Below, piece by piece: positions 3,716 to 7,518 of a stretch of DNA of 64,000 bases. A model generated the notes under the pieces. It worked only from the letters and a program-made list of their open reading frames with translations, had not been told where the DNA came from and did not search any database. The stretch's first letter is position 1. Every line of letters starts with the position of its first letter. The translations under genes and the position numbers were made by a program. Source of the stretch: Acidobacteriota bacterium (GTDB taxonomy: Bacteria; Acidobacteriota; Terriglobia; Bryobacterales; Bryobacteraceae); contig JAPKYX010000018.1 in NCBI GenBank assembly GCA_026394075.1, positions 1 to 64,000 of the forward strand, written 5' to 3'.

Positions 3716-4612
3716 ATGGCAAACCTGGGATTTCTTGGATTGGGCATCATGGGCTACCCGATGGCCCGGCACTTGTTGGAAGCGGGACACCGTGTGGCCT
3801 TGTGGTCGCATACCGGCTCCAAGGCGGTGGAATTGGCGGCGAAGGGCGACGGCATTGCTTGCGCCACCCCCGCCGAAGTGGGCGCTCACGCCGACTGCAT
3901 TTTCCTCTGCGTTGGCGACACCGCCATGTCGGAACAGGTGATCCTGGGGCCGAACGGAATCATTGAGGGTGCGAAGCCCGGAACCGTCATCGTTGATGCC
4001 TCCACCGTGTCCCCTTCGGCCAGCCGGGCGGTCTCGGCGGCGGTGGCGGCCAAAGGATTCCATTTTCTGGATGCGCCCTGCACCGGCTCCAAACCCGGCG
4101 CCGAGGGCGGCCGGCTGACCTTTATGGTCGGCGGCGACAAAGAAGTGTTTGAGCGCGTGAAGCCTTTCTTTGAACCGATGGGCAAGAATCTCTACTATTG
4201 CGGCGGCTCAGGGTTAGGCCTGCAAGCCAAACTGACGCAAAACCTGATTCTTTCTAACATCATGCAGGCGTTCAACGAAGGCCTGGTATTGGCCACCAAG
4301 GGCGGCGTGCAGCCGGAATTGATGCTGGAGATACTGGAAAATTCGGCCGCCAAGAGCGGTTTGGTCGCCTTCAAGGCCCCCTACATCTTCCGCCGCGACT
4401 TCTCCACCAATTTTTCCGTAAAGTGGATGCACAAGGACATCGGGCTGATGCTGGACAGTGGAAAAGAGCTGGATGTGCCCCTTCCGCTCACCTCCCTCAC
4501 CCAGCAAATGTTCCGCGCGGCAATCGCCAAAGGCTATGGCGACGACGATATCTGTAGCACGATCAAGGTTTTAGAGGAGATTGTCGGCGTTGAGGTGAAG
4601 GGCACCACGTAA
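3716..4612 (+). CDS. NAD(P)-dependent oxidoreductase, 3-hydroxyisobutyrate dehydrogenase family
   Basis: A 298-residue beta-hydroxyacid dehydrogenase. The N-terminal Rossmann fold begins with GFLGLGIMGYPMA (GxGxxG). The substrate-binding signature DAPCTGSKPGAEGGRLT aligns with the family's D-A-P-V-S-G-G-x-x-G-A segment. The catalytic lysine lies in the GLGLQAKLTQNL helix, with the N-x-x-x-x motif after it. The C-terminal all-alpha domain is complete and the length is normal. ATG 3716 directly precedes the fold, so the longer reading frame upstream is disregarded. Members oxidise 3-hydroxyisobutyrate, tartronate semialdehyde, succinic semialdehyde and similar compounds, and the exact substrate is not evident. 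It is divergent from the TMEM175 gene and followed by the long dxr leader. Confidence 0.88.
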   Translation: MANLGFLGLGIMGYPMARHLLEAGHRVALWSHTGSKAVELAAKGDGIACATPAEVGAHADCIFLCVGDTAMSEQVILGPNGIIEGAKPGTVIVDASTVSPSASRAVSAAVAAKGFHFLDAPCTGSKPGAEGGRLTFMVGGDKEVFERVKPFFEPMGKNLYYCGGSGLGLQAKLTQNLILSNIMQAFNEGLVLATKGGVQPELMLEILENSAAKSGLVAFKAPYIFRRDFSTNFSVKWMHKDIGLMLDSGKELDVPLPLTSLTQQMFRAAIAKGYGDDDICSTIKVLEEIVGVEVKGTT

Positions 4613-4640
4613 AGCTTACAAAAATCTGAAAAGATTTCTC

Positions 4641-4669
4641 TTGCAATTCCAAATTCCATATCCTATTAT
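4641..4669 (+). promoter_or_regulatory. Sigma-70-type promoter for the dxr leader
   Basis: TTGCAA (4641-4646), a 17-base spacer and TATTAT (4664-4669) form a near-consensus housekeeping promoter, in a locally AT-rich patch of an otherwise GC-rich window. The expected start is about 4676. An inverted repeat ATTCCAA (4646-4652) / TTGGAAT (4669-4675) brackets the spacer and -10 and could be an operator. These elements are seen in the sequence. Activity is inferred. Confidence 0.55.
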
Positions 4670-4675
4670 TGGAAT

Positions 4676-4936
4676 CAAGCCGGGGAGGCAACTCCCACCA
4701 AAGCGAGACTAACCTCATAAGACCCCTGAAGCAAACCTTCCCGGCGCCCCTCGGGGTTTGGGTCTTGAACGAACGAGGTTAACTCCTCTGACGAACTTCT
4801 TACCGGTCCAATTCAGCTAACGTGGTACCGCGATAGGCGTGGTTCCGTGTGTGACTCCATCTCTGACGTCTCTCTCGTGGCCTGGCTGGGCCCGACGAAC
4901 CACAAACTCCGCGATACTGGTCTAAAGAGACACTGA
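4676..4936 (+). ncRNA. Structured 5' leader or small RNA upstream of dxr
   Basis: This stretch has no convincing ORF but dense pairing. GGGAG (4683-4687) and CTCCC (4692-4696) close a GCAA tetraloop. TAACCTC (4710-4716) pairs with GAGGTTA (4775-4781), AAGACCC (4719-4725) with GGGTCTT (4760-4766), and AAACC (4733-4737) with GGTTT (4755-4759), making one long interrupted hairpin with a 2x8 internal loop and a 7-base bulge. Next come two related 11-mers, GTGGTACCGCG (4822-4832) and GTGGTTCCGTG (4839-4849). The second is complementary over 7 bases to GAACCAC (4897-4903). The first equals the core of the T-box antiterminator sequence, but no complete T-box stem I is evident. It may be a cis-acting riboregulator of dxr or an independent small RNA. 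The class is unknown. Confidence 0.5.
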
Positions 4937-6121
4937 ATGACGCAATTGACGATTCTTGGGTCCACTGGGTCCATTGGCCGCAGCACGCTGGATGTCGTGC
5001 GCCAGTGGCCGGACCGTTACCGTATCTTTGCCCTGGTGGCCGGCCACAATATTGACCAGCTGGCAGCGCAAGTAGAAGAATTTAAACCACAAGTGGTGGT
5101 GACCGCCGACGAGACCGGGCGCGATGCGCTGGCGGCCAAGCTTTCGGGTTCCGCGCACAAACCGGAGTTGCTGTTTGGGCCGGAGGCGCGCGTGCAAGCG
5201 TCCATCGCCCCGGAAGTCGGCTTTCTCATGTCGGCGATTGTCGGCGTGGCGGGTCTGGAAGCCACCTATGCGGCCATCAAGCGCGGACTGCCCATCGGCT
5301 TAGCGAACAAAGAAGTGCTGGTGGCCAGCGGCGAACTGGTGATGGCGGCGGTCAAGGCCGCCGGCACGGAGCTGCTACCCGTCGATAGCGAGCATAACGG
5401 CGCCCACCAGTGCCTGCGCGCCGGACGGCGCAATGAAGTGACCAAGCTGATCCTGACCGCTTCCGGCGGCCCGTTCCGCAAGACTCCGGCTGCGGATTTG
5501 GCGACCGTGACGCCGGAGCAGGCGCTGAACCACCCCACCTGGAAGATGGGCCAGCGGATCACGATTGACTCTGCCACGCTGATGAATAAGGGCTTTGAGG
5601 TGATTGAAGCCTGCTGGCTGTTCGATTTTCCGGCCGAGGAAGTGGAAGTGGTGGTGCACCCGCAATCGAGCATCCACGCCATGGTGGAGTACAACGACGG
5701 CAGCGTGATTGCGCAGATTTCGGCCACCGACATGCGGATGCCGATCCAGTACGCACTCACCTACCCGGAGCGCGCGACGGCCCCGGTGCCGCGCATGGAC
5801 TGGCAACAGGCTCGCCAATGGGAATTCTATCCGCCCGATTTCGAGAAGTTCCCGTTGCTGGGGCTGGCCTACCAGGCGGTCCGGCAGGGCGGATCCGCCG
5901 GCTGCACCTTGAATGCCGCCGATGAGATTGCGGTGGAAGCATTTTTGCAGGGCCAGATCCCCTTCCCCGGCATCTGGGAAACAGTGGCGGAAACTTTGTC
6001 GCGCGTGCCCGTATCGAACCCGCGCAGCGTGGCCGAAGTACTGGAAGTGGACCGCCGCAGCCGCGAGATCGCGCGGACGCTGGTGGCGAAACGCGCAACC
6101 GGAGCCGTCCGCCGCGCGTAG
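4937..6121 (+). CDS. dxr: 1-deoxy-D-xylulose 5-phosphate reductoisomerase
   Basis: Second enzyme of the MEP isoprenoid pathway. It converts DXP to 2-C-methyl-D-erythritol 4-phosphate with NADPH and a divalent metal. The 394-residue length is typical. The NADPH motif GSTGSIG is at 8-14. The metal ligands lie in VDSEHN (Asp150, Glu152, same numbering as E. coli), the flexible-loop NHPTWKMG carries the active-site Trp, and DSATLMNKG follows. The segment after DSEHN reads G-A-H-Q-C-L, where most family members have A-I-(F/H)-Q-(C/S)-L. This is a two-residue variation beside the metal site. It is followed after 56 bases by rseP, the same pairing seen loosely in E. coli, and preceded by a long structured leader that may control it. 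Confidence 0.96.
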   Translation: MTQLTILGSTGSIGRSTLDVVRQWPDRYRIFALVAGHNIDQLAAQVEEFKPQVVVTADETGRDALAAKLSGSAHKPELLFGPEARVQASIAPEVGFLMSAIVGVAGLEATYAAIKRGLPIGLANKEVLVASGELVMAAVKAAGTELLPVDSEHNGAHQCLRAGRRNEVTKLILTASGGPFRKTPAADLATVTPEQALNHPTWKMGQRITIDSATLMNKGFEVIEACWLFDFPAEEVEVVVHPQSSIHAMVEYNDGSVIAQISATDMRMPIQYALTYPERATAPVPRMDWQQARQWEFYPPDFEKFPLLGLAYQAVRQGGSAGCTLNAADEIAVEAFLQGQIPFPGIWETVAETLSRVPVSNPRSVAEVLEVDRRSREIARTLVAKRATGAVRRA

Positions 6122-6177: not shown

Positions 6178-7518
6178 ATGGAGTTCATACAGAACGTTGG
6201 CGCGCTGTTGGTGCTGATCGGGATCATGATTCTGATCCACGAACTGGGCCACTACTGGGCGGCGATCTACTTTGGCGTCCGCGTCGAAGCGTTCAGCTTT
6301 GGGTTCGGCCCGCGCATCTTCGGTTTCAAGAAGGGCGATACGGATTTCCGGTTCTCGCTGATTCCCTTTGGCGGCTATGTGAAGATGACCGGGCAATCGG
6401 ACACGGGCGAGGCGTTTGAGGCTTCCGCCGACGAAGGCTCCTTCATGAACAAGCCGCGCTGGCAGCGGCTGATTATCGCCTTTGCCGGTCCGGCGATGAA
6501 CATCATTTTGGCCGTTGGTCTGGTGACGGGCATCTTCATGGTGCGCTATCCCAAGATGCTGTCCGTGGACGGACCCGCCGTCATCGGGCACATCGCTCCG
6601 GACTCACCGGCGGCAAAGGCCGGGCTGCAAGAAGGGGACCGCATCGTTCGCCTGGAAGATAGCGCCAACCCCACCTGGGAAGATGTCGCCATGCGTGAAG
6701 CCGGAGCCGTGGATATTCCGCTGCCCGTGATCGTCGAACGCAAGGCGGACCAAGGCCCGCAAACCGAACGCTATGTACTGACTCCCAAGCTGGATGCCAA
6801 GACCGGCCTCGGCTACCTGGGCTGGTCGGAGCAGAATGAGACGCTGGTGGCGTCGGTGTCGCCCGGTATGGGCGCCGAAAAGGCGGGTCTGCAGAAGGGC
6901 GATGTCATCATCGCCGTCAATGGCGTGCCGTTGCACTCCACTATGAAGTTGCATGAACTGGTGCGCGCCTCCGCCGGCAAGCCCCTGGATGTGGCGTACG
7001 CCCGCGCCGGGGAACGGAGCAAGGTGGCGGTGACGCCCACGTTCTCGAAAGACGATACGCCGGAAGGCCGCTGGATGATCGGCGTCCGCCTGGAGCCTCG
7101 CTATGTGATTACGCAGCTCTCCTTCCCGGATGCGCTGGCCGAATCGGTGAAGCAGAACACCAAGAGCGCCGGGCTGATCTTCGGCTTCGTGCGCGGCATC
7201 GTGGAGCAACGCATGTCGCCCAAATCGCTGGAAGGCCCGATCCGCATCGGCCAACTCTCGGGCGAAGCGGCGCGCGAGGGGATCATCCCCTACATCAGCC
7301 TGATGGCGATGGTCAGCCTGAACTTGGCCATCTTCAACCTGCTGCCGATTCCGATTTTGGATGGCGGCATGATCCTGATGCTGCTGATTGAGATGCTGAT
7401 GCAGCGCGACCTGAGCCTGCGCGTCAAAGAGACCGTGCTGAAGTTCGGCTTCGTCTTCTTGATGGCGCTGGTGGTGTTTGTTCTCTACAACGACATCACC
7501 AAAACCATCGGCGGCTAG
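6178..7518 (+). CDS. rseP: RIP metalloprotease RseP (site-2 protease)
   Basis: A 446-residue intramembrane zinc protease. HELGH near residue 20 in the first transmembrane helix supplies the zinc ligands, and NLLPIPILDGG near the C-terminus supplies the third ligand (LDG motif). Two PDZ domains lie between (about 120-200 and 210-290), flanked by membrane helices, as in E. coli RseP. The family cuts anti-sigma factors and remnant signal peptides in the inner membrane. AAGGAG stands 5-10 bases before ATG 6178, which fixes the start. It is probably co-transcribed with dxr. No anti-sigma/sigma pair is visible nearby, so its substrate is unknown. Confidence 0.95.
   Translation: MEFIQNVGALLVLIGIMILIHELGHYWAAIYFGVRVEAFSFGFGPRIFGFKKGDTDFRFSLIPFGGYVKMTGQSDTGEAFEASADEGSFMNKPRWQRLIIAFAGPAMNIILAVGLVTGIFMVRYPKMLSVDGPAVIGHIAPDSPAAKAGLQEGDRIVRLEDSANPTWEDVAMREAGAVDIPLPVIVERKADQGPQTERYVLTPKLDAKTGLGYLGWSEQNETLVASVSPGMGAEKAGLQKGDVIIAVNGVPLHSTMKLHELVRASAGKPLDVAYARAGERSKVAVTPTFSKDDTPEGRWMIGVRLEPRYVITQLSFPDALAESVKQNTKSAGLIFGFVRGIVEQRMSPKSLEGPIRIGQLSGEAAREGIIPYISLMAMVSLNLAIFNLLPIPILDGGMILMLLIEMLMQRDLSLRVKETVLKFGFVFLMALVVFVLYNDITKTIGG

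Follow-up and report, generated by a model that had tools for sequence, protein, structure and literature searches.

A probable small non-coding RNA gene next to dxr in Bryobacterales (Acidobacteriota)

The locus

The window, that is, the whole 64,000-nt stretch of DNA analysed here, contains a 324-nt intergenic region between a gene for a 3-hydroxyisobutyrate dehydrogenase-like protein and dxr. An earlier note on this DNA had proposed that the region is a long structured leader and possibly a riboregulator of dxr. The genes and transcription signals at the locus are the following:

3722–4612, plus strand: 3-hydroxyisobutyrate dehydrogenase-like gene (Pfam PF03446 and PF14833)
4641–4669, plus strand: promoter of the putative small RNA (sRNA), with a −35 box TTGCAA, a 17-nt spacer and a −10 box TATTAT (promoter scan)
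4677–4749, plus strand: sRNA core, 73 nt as modelled (conservation, RNA model and fold)
4913–4918, plus strand: GATACT, a possible −10 box of dxr
4937–6121, plus strand: dxr (Pfam PF02670, PF08436 and PF13288), the next gene, which lies outside the RNA gene
6178–7518: gene for an M50-family protease, located 3' of dxr

The promoter, which had been pointed out in the earlier note, was confirmed as the one promoter found by a scan of positions 4500–5000, against a mean of 0.3 in shuffled sequences. Judging from the usual spacing, the first base of the RNA is expected at about position 4677, and the tail of the RNA gene reaches about 4766–4781. In none of its frames does the core (4677–4749) have an ATG, GTG or TTG codon. 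An RNA model, partly built from this same sequence, matched positions 4676–4749 with a score of 96.8 bits, and the RNA is present in a single copy in its own genome. The usual upstream neighbour is the dehydrogenase-like gene, found directly 5' of the RNA in 94 of 121 copies among the matches listed. In the window this gene is itself adjoined by a gene for a TMEM175-like potassium channel (PF06736; 2993–3625, minus strand).

Conservation and phylogenetic distribution

A DNA search with positions 4613–4936 gave matches in 48 of 61 genomes, including the source genome. Beyond the same genus, these matches covered mainly positions from about 20 to 150 of the query, which correspond to the promoter and the first 70–90 nt of the RNA, and we found no conservation in the stretch from there to dxr. 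The −10 box is present in 99 of 104 non-redundant loci and is accompanied by the −35 box in 89 of the 104.

In the order as a whole, which is Bryobacterales according to the record titles, a pattern search allowing up to three mismatches detected the RNA in 224 of 257 genomes (146 of 163 genomes of good quality). All 11 genomes of one genus, g37, were missed by this first pattern; a variant is present in eight of them, which brings the total for the order to 232 of 257 genomes. In a sample of the phylum there were matches in three of 396 genomes, all from the window's own family and including the source genome, and in none of the 393 others. A broader pattern applied to a sample of the class, which shares genomes with the phylum sample, matched 103 of the 115 genomes belonging to the order and none of 284 others (the split was counted from the individual rows). 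The claim on distribution is carried by these pattern searches, which would miss strongly diverged copies. A search of the phylum sample with the RNA model, in which only 12 candidates per genome were scored, likewise gave three of 396 genomes, all of the same family, with the source genome among them. Viral contigs yielded no exact matches. Among 80 record titles from the 119 listed loci, many give Bryobacterales, Bryobacteraceae or Candidatus Solibacter and others just Acidobacteria or Terriglobia. One record titled Acidimicrobiia (L096) carries the RNA and is possibly a mislabelled acidobacterial metagenome-assembled genome (MAG).

The RNA is usually single-copy across the order. Tandem copies were seen in two genomes, both of 9.5 Mb, one with three copies (L243, genome G629) and the other with two (L244, genome G622). 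These copies lie about 445–535 nt apart between the dehydrogenase gene and dxr, have a nearly identical core and are each preceded by a separate promoter.

Secondary structure

The structural elements of the RNA are listed below, with the evidence in parentheses:

4679–4688, plus strand: 5' strand of the terminal stem P1, GCCGGGGAGG (covariation in A1 and A2)
4683–4696, plus strand: competing 5' hairpin H1, GGGAG-GCAA-CTCCC, of the GNRA type (pairing counts)
4692–4716, plus strand: loop stretch 1, CTCCCACCAAAGCGAGACTAACCTC, nearly invariant, a proposed binding region (alignments A1 and A2)
4719–4733, plus strand: loop stretch 2, AAGACCCCTGAAGCA, nearly invariant, a proposed binding region (alignments A1 and A2)
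4736–4745, plus strand: 3' strand of P1, CCTTCCCGGC (covariation in A1 and A2)
4746–4757, plus strand: small hairpin H2, directly 3' of P1 (counts of CCC-loop-GGG and predicted fold)
4760–4766, plus strand: GGGTCTT in the tail, complementary to AAGACCC at 4719–4725 (motif counts)
4775–4781, plus strand: GAGGTTA, complementary to TAACCTC at 4710–4716, forming the outer helix of an alternative fold in this genome (fold of 4677–4781)

The structure was assessed in two alignments, A1 with 46 copies and A2 with 104 distinct sequences out of 179 copies; rows L069 and L158 of A2 (extra G) are shifted by a single column at their 5' ends and were kept in the counts. The earlier note had recommended an alignment of relatives and a check for covariation, and this brought out a stem that its author had missed: the 10-bp P1, in which GCCGGGGAGG pairs with CCUCCCCGGC, covaries. 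Over the 104 distinct copies of A2, P1 is paired in 99.5% of 936 cells, and four of the nine counted pairs have changed on both sides (25 cells). Not one of 500 shuffles reached the pairing, the both-side changes or the covariation score of P1, and controls with a slid partner gave at most 66.3% of paired cells. One measure of covariation, the number of further pair types, showed no excess over shuffles (7 against 7.5). P1 also includes 14 G-U cells, which would turn into A-C mismatches on the opposite strand; since they fit only the plus strand, we take the plus strand to be the RNA.

The loop enclosed by P1 consists of CUCCCACCAAAGCGAGACUAACCUC and AAGACCCCUGAAGCA, both nearly invariant, with a linker of variable length between them; about 40 positions of this loop hardly vary across genera in A2. 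The GNRA-capped hairpin of the earlier note, H1, can be read directly from the sequence and uses the same 5' strand as P1. Of its 518 cells, 98.8% are paired, and one of its five pairs has changed on both sides, as also happens in 296 of 500 shuffles. H2 was seen in 69 of the 104 non-redundant loci, with U-rich positions after it, and not in the other 35; in about eight of the 104 rows (for example L014, L017, L055 and L094) the pattern for the end of P1 fell inside or behind H2, which lowered the counts for H2 and for the tail.

The predicted fold of the 73-nt core had a z-score of −1.90, with seven of 200 shuffles folding as well. There was no excess stability over shuffles for positions 4677–4781 (z-score −0.33, 77 of 200 shuffles as good) or for the 285 nt from 4676 to 4960 (z-score +1.25, 181 of 200). 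Of the proposed long structured leader, then, the part up to about position 4750 holds, being conserved and containing a covarying stem, whereas the whole of 4676–4960 folds no better than shuffled sequence.

The tail, the 3' end and competing folds

Two 7-bp helices described in the earlier note, UAACCUC/GAGGUUA (4710–4716 with 4775–4781) and AAGACCC/GGGUCUU (4719–4725 with 4760–4766), are both present in the best fold of 4677–4781. The sequence GAGGTTA was found in three of 133 downstream stretches. The invariant AAGACC has its complement, GGTCTT, behind P1 in 27 of 104 loci; the 60 permutations of GGTCTT, itself included, occur in 1.00 loci on average, with 7 for the next best. The tail forms at least seven contiguous Watson-Crick pairs with the loop in 36% of the 104 loci, compared with 3% for shuffled tails and 28% for tails swapped between loci, and the native mean pairing was reached in none of 200 swaps. 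As far as sequence comparison goes, this suggests that the tail fits the loop in a lineage-specific manner, with relatedness not fully removed from the comparison; the loop is too uniform for the tail pairing to show covariation. The shuffles in the tail, duplex-energy and dxr-box tests preserve base composition only.

Folds predicted for 110 loci depend on where the RNA is taken to end. With an end 4 nt after P1, the probability of P1 falls below 0.9 in no locus. With a tail of 36 nt, the median advantage of P1 falls to 3.0 kcal/mol, 52 of the 110 loci are within 3 kcal/mol, and the probability of P1 is below 0.5 in 17 loci, including a value of 0.03 in the window. The best predicted fold without P1 includes H1 in 108 of the 110 loci. 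Two folds are predicted to compete, with P1 still favoured in most loci, and the alternative folds suggested in the earlier note are plausible.

Seven of eight genomes of genus g37 (L175–L180 and L032, the latter being the same place as L182) have a strong hairpin that begins no more than 10 nt from P1 and carries a run of T; it is missing from the eighth (L031, the same place as L181). Two of these putative terminators, when folded against shuffles, had z-scores of −4.53 and −6.88. A scan for consensus terminators picked up the L032 hairpin only in part and gave nothing for L175, so that the g37 terminators are identified by folding. The same kind of scan found no terminator in the window. 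In the window's family, the candidate for a terminator of the RNA's own is H2 with a short U-rich tail, which is present in part of the loci only.

Position relative to dxr

The position of dxr was recorded for 121 RNA copies in 119 loci among the matches listed. In 80 of them it follows in the same orientation at no more than 400 nt, in five it lies further downstream (one of them, in L055, being the first copy of a tandem pair), and in seven it is upstream and divergent; it was unseen despite at least 1 kb of sequence in 19 and could not be assessed in 10. In two genomes dxr is on the same contig as the RNA at a distance of 2.9 Mb (G040) or 0.53 Mb (G047), and in a locus from the same genus as the window (L054) the two are 3.6 kb apart. 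In loci without dxr the next open reading frames (ORFs) are varied and a number of them run in the opposite direction, according to crude ORF calls inspected by eye.

Of 75 non-redundant loci with adjacent dxr, 60 have an extended −10 box just before the gene, against 2.12 in shuffles, and dxr seems, from this motif, to be read from its own extended −10 promoter with a very short leader. In the rows printed, the box is about 16–43 nt from the start codon. The window has no match to this motif; the GATACT at 4913–4918, which is also found before dxr in L054, might serve as the −10 box there. A riboswitch or leader of dxr should be found in the dxr 5' leader wherever it is present, and this is not what we saw: the RNA is conserved independently of the downstream gene.

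Proposed function and candidate targets

We consider it probable, on the strength of sequence comparisons, that positions 4677 to about 4766–4781 constitute an autonomous small non-coding RNA gene, whose product would act in trans, probably by pairing of its loop with mRNAs. The promoter, P1, the C-rich stretches of the loop, the presence in most genomes of the order, the lack of a fixed downstream gene and the g37 terminator all support this reading, and the promoter, as expected of an autonomous sRNA, marks the 5' boundary of the conserved stretch. The RNA would be transcribed on its own, with P1 holding the loop open; the loop, parts of which (ACCUC, CUCCC and CCCC) resemble the anti-Shine-Dalgarno sequence, could then pair with several mRNAs at their start regions, thereby blocking or exposing them. 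H1 together with the pairing of tail and loop may represent an alternative, closed state, or a pseudoknot if P1 is kept. Which of the open and closed states is adopted might depend on where the 3' end lies. Hfq perhaps assists the pairing of loop and mRNA. The genome does encode Hfq (PF17209, 94.7 bits; G000:C96:9437-9622, an open frame of 141 codons), along with a second Hfq-like match whose score of 27.8 bits is just over the cut-off of 27 (G000:C213:5787-5948).

Searches for targets in the same genome yielded nothing convincing. The complement of loop stretch 1 had 10 non-self matches compared with 22 for the reversed pattern, which is no enrichment; that of loop stretch 2 had seven against four for the control, with one at a plausible start region. 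Duplex energies of the loop were calculated for the start regions of 170 predicted genes, located within about 254 kb of a genome of 5.77 Mb. The mean was no better than for shuffled loops, 17 of 30 being at least as good, and the difference between start regions and mid-gene positions was somewhat better, with two of 30 shuffled loops as good. The single candidate target, L218 (G000:C161:23368-23382, minus strand), contains TACTTCAGGGGGCTT, a near-complement of loop stretch 2; 28 nt separate the end of this sequence from the ATG downstream, where an ORF spanning at least 490 codons begins. By eye, the N-terminus of this ORF appears TonB-receptor-like.

A more elaborate scheme would make the RNA a two-state device used throughout the order. 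The G-rich 5' strand would choose between the far 3' strand, giving P1 and an open loop, and the nearby CUCCC, giving H1, and the tail would close the loop; the 3' end, a ligand or a protein would switch the RNA, which would serve as a general trans regulator of translation in Bryobacterales. We offer this scheme as a speculation that is unlikely to hold.

Alternative interpretations

One alternative is that the element acts in cis as a leader or riboswitch of dxr, with P1 and the loop as a sensor and the fold composed of H1 and the tail as a terminator or expression switch. It would account for the frequency with which dxr follows at no more than 400 nt in the same orientation, for the presence of alternative folds that shift with the length of the tail, and for the recurrence of tail-loop pairing. 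Nevertheless, we do not regard the RNA as a dxr leader, because its place beside dxr is not kept (many genomes have dxr divergent, distant or elsewhere, with varied and in a number of cases oppositely directed ORFs in its stead), because a separate promoter-like box precedes dxr itself, and because a terminator follows directly behind the RNA in seven of the eight g37 genomes. Where tandem copies precede one dxr, moreover, they have separate promoters. The riboregulator leader of the earlier note does not survive these observations, and a role in cis now looks quite improbable. Even less can be said for a T-box element acting on dxr, which was suggested by the 11-mer GTGGTACCGCG. There was no match to a T-box model up to an E-value of 5 in 4500–5100, so the doubt that the note itself had voiced was correct. 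Its two 11-mers (4822–4832 and 4839–4849) and the GAACCAC at 4897–4903 are indeed present, but they were found in just one of 159 distinct downstream stretches, that of the window itself; a role for their pairing is not supported, these elements being private to the window, and we treat the T-box as refuted.

The conservation of both a promoter and an inverted repeat could also indicate a DNA element, either a cluster of promoters or a protein-binding palindrome, in place of an RNA. That is very hard to reconcile with the covariation of the P1 pairs, with G-U pairs compatible with just one of the strands, with the near invariance of the loop between the repeats and with the orientation of promoter and terminator, both of which fit transcription of the plus strand; we give this reading little credence. 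A different possibility is an sRNA that sequesters a regulatory protein, as do CsrB or 6S, and does not act by base pairing. Seeds of base-pairing RNAs usually need fewer invariant positions than the roughly 40 that hardly vary across genera in this loop, and the complementary sites searched for showed no enrichment, both of which would favour protein binding. On the other hand, no known protein-recognition repeat is evident, and the loop looks largely unstructured in the predictions and C-rich, as in base-pairing RNAs. We view a protein-binding function as unlikely, although it deserves consideration, and retain a base-pairing sRNA that acts in trans as the preferred reading.

Relation to known RNAs

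A search of the whole window against Rfam 15 at the gathering score returned only a tRNA, and positions 4500–5100 gave a single, spurious match to another family up to an E-value of 5. This match, to the viral frameshift family eiav_FSE at 4682–4742, was rejected because its score of 23.1 bits is well short of the gathering score, 40. The corresponding loci of eight relatives gave nothing up to an E-value of 0.1. We found no description of this RNA in the literature searched, which is a weak result as subscription papers and supplements were outside its scope; a word search of the main text of two papers (PMC8632094 and PMC11109978) gave no match.

The RNA may represent a new family of small RNAs, unless it is the Solibacter-1 motif of Weinberg et al. 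2010. In a table row, this motif is listed for Solibacter usitatus only, as not cis-regulatory and uncertain as an RNA, and is given without an Rfam accession (PMC2864571). The present RNA was found in L109, a MAG whose title reads Candidatus Solibacter usitatus, and the two 9.5-Mb genomes with two or three tandem copies belong to the same family; as far as its table row shows, Solibacter-1 might be the same RNA. The table also names Acido-1 (RF01686) and Acido-Lenti-1 (RF01687) as candidate non-coding RNAs of Acidobacteria (PMC2864571). Both differ from the present RNA in having no match in the window, nor in the loci of the eight relatives up to an E-value of 0.1.

In a table of a review, only four distinct annotated small RNAs are listed for Acidobacteria (PMC9029176). 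The RNA described here is short, usually single-copy and present in most genomes of its order, which makes it an easy first target for work on sRNA biology in this phylum, and the stretch should not be annotated as a dxr leader or a T-box. The T-box (RF00230) comes to mind through one 11-mer of the window, which the earlier note likened to the antiterminator core; it is unlike the present element in that there is no covariance-model match and the 11-mer is not conserved.

Trans-acting base-pairing sRNAs with C-rich loops exist, for example RsaE/RoxS and Qrr. The present RNA resembles this type in being short, in having its own promoter and invariant, single-stranded C-rich stretches, in the tandem copies of some genomes and in the presence of Hfq in the host. 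It differs in having no credible match in Rfam 15, in having been seen in a single acidobacterial order only and in its long terminal stem with a competing hairpin.
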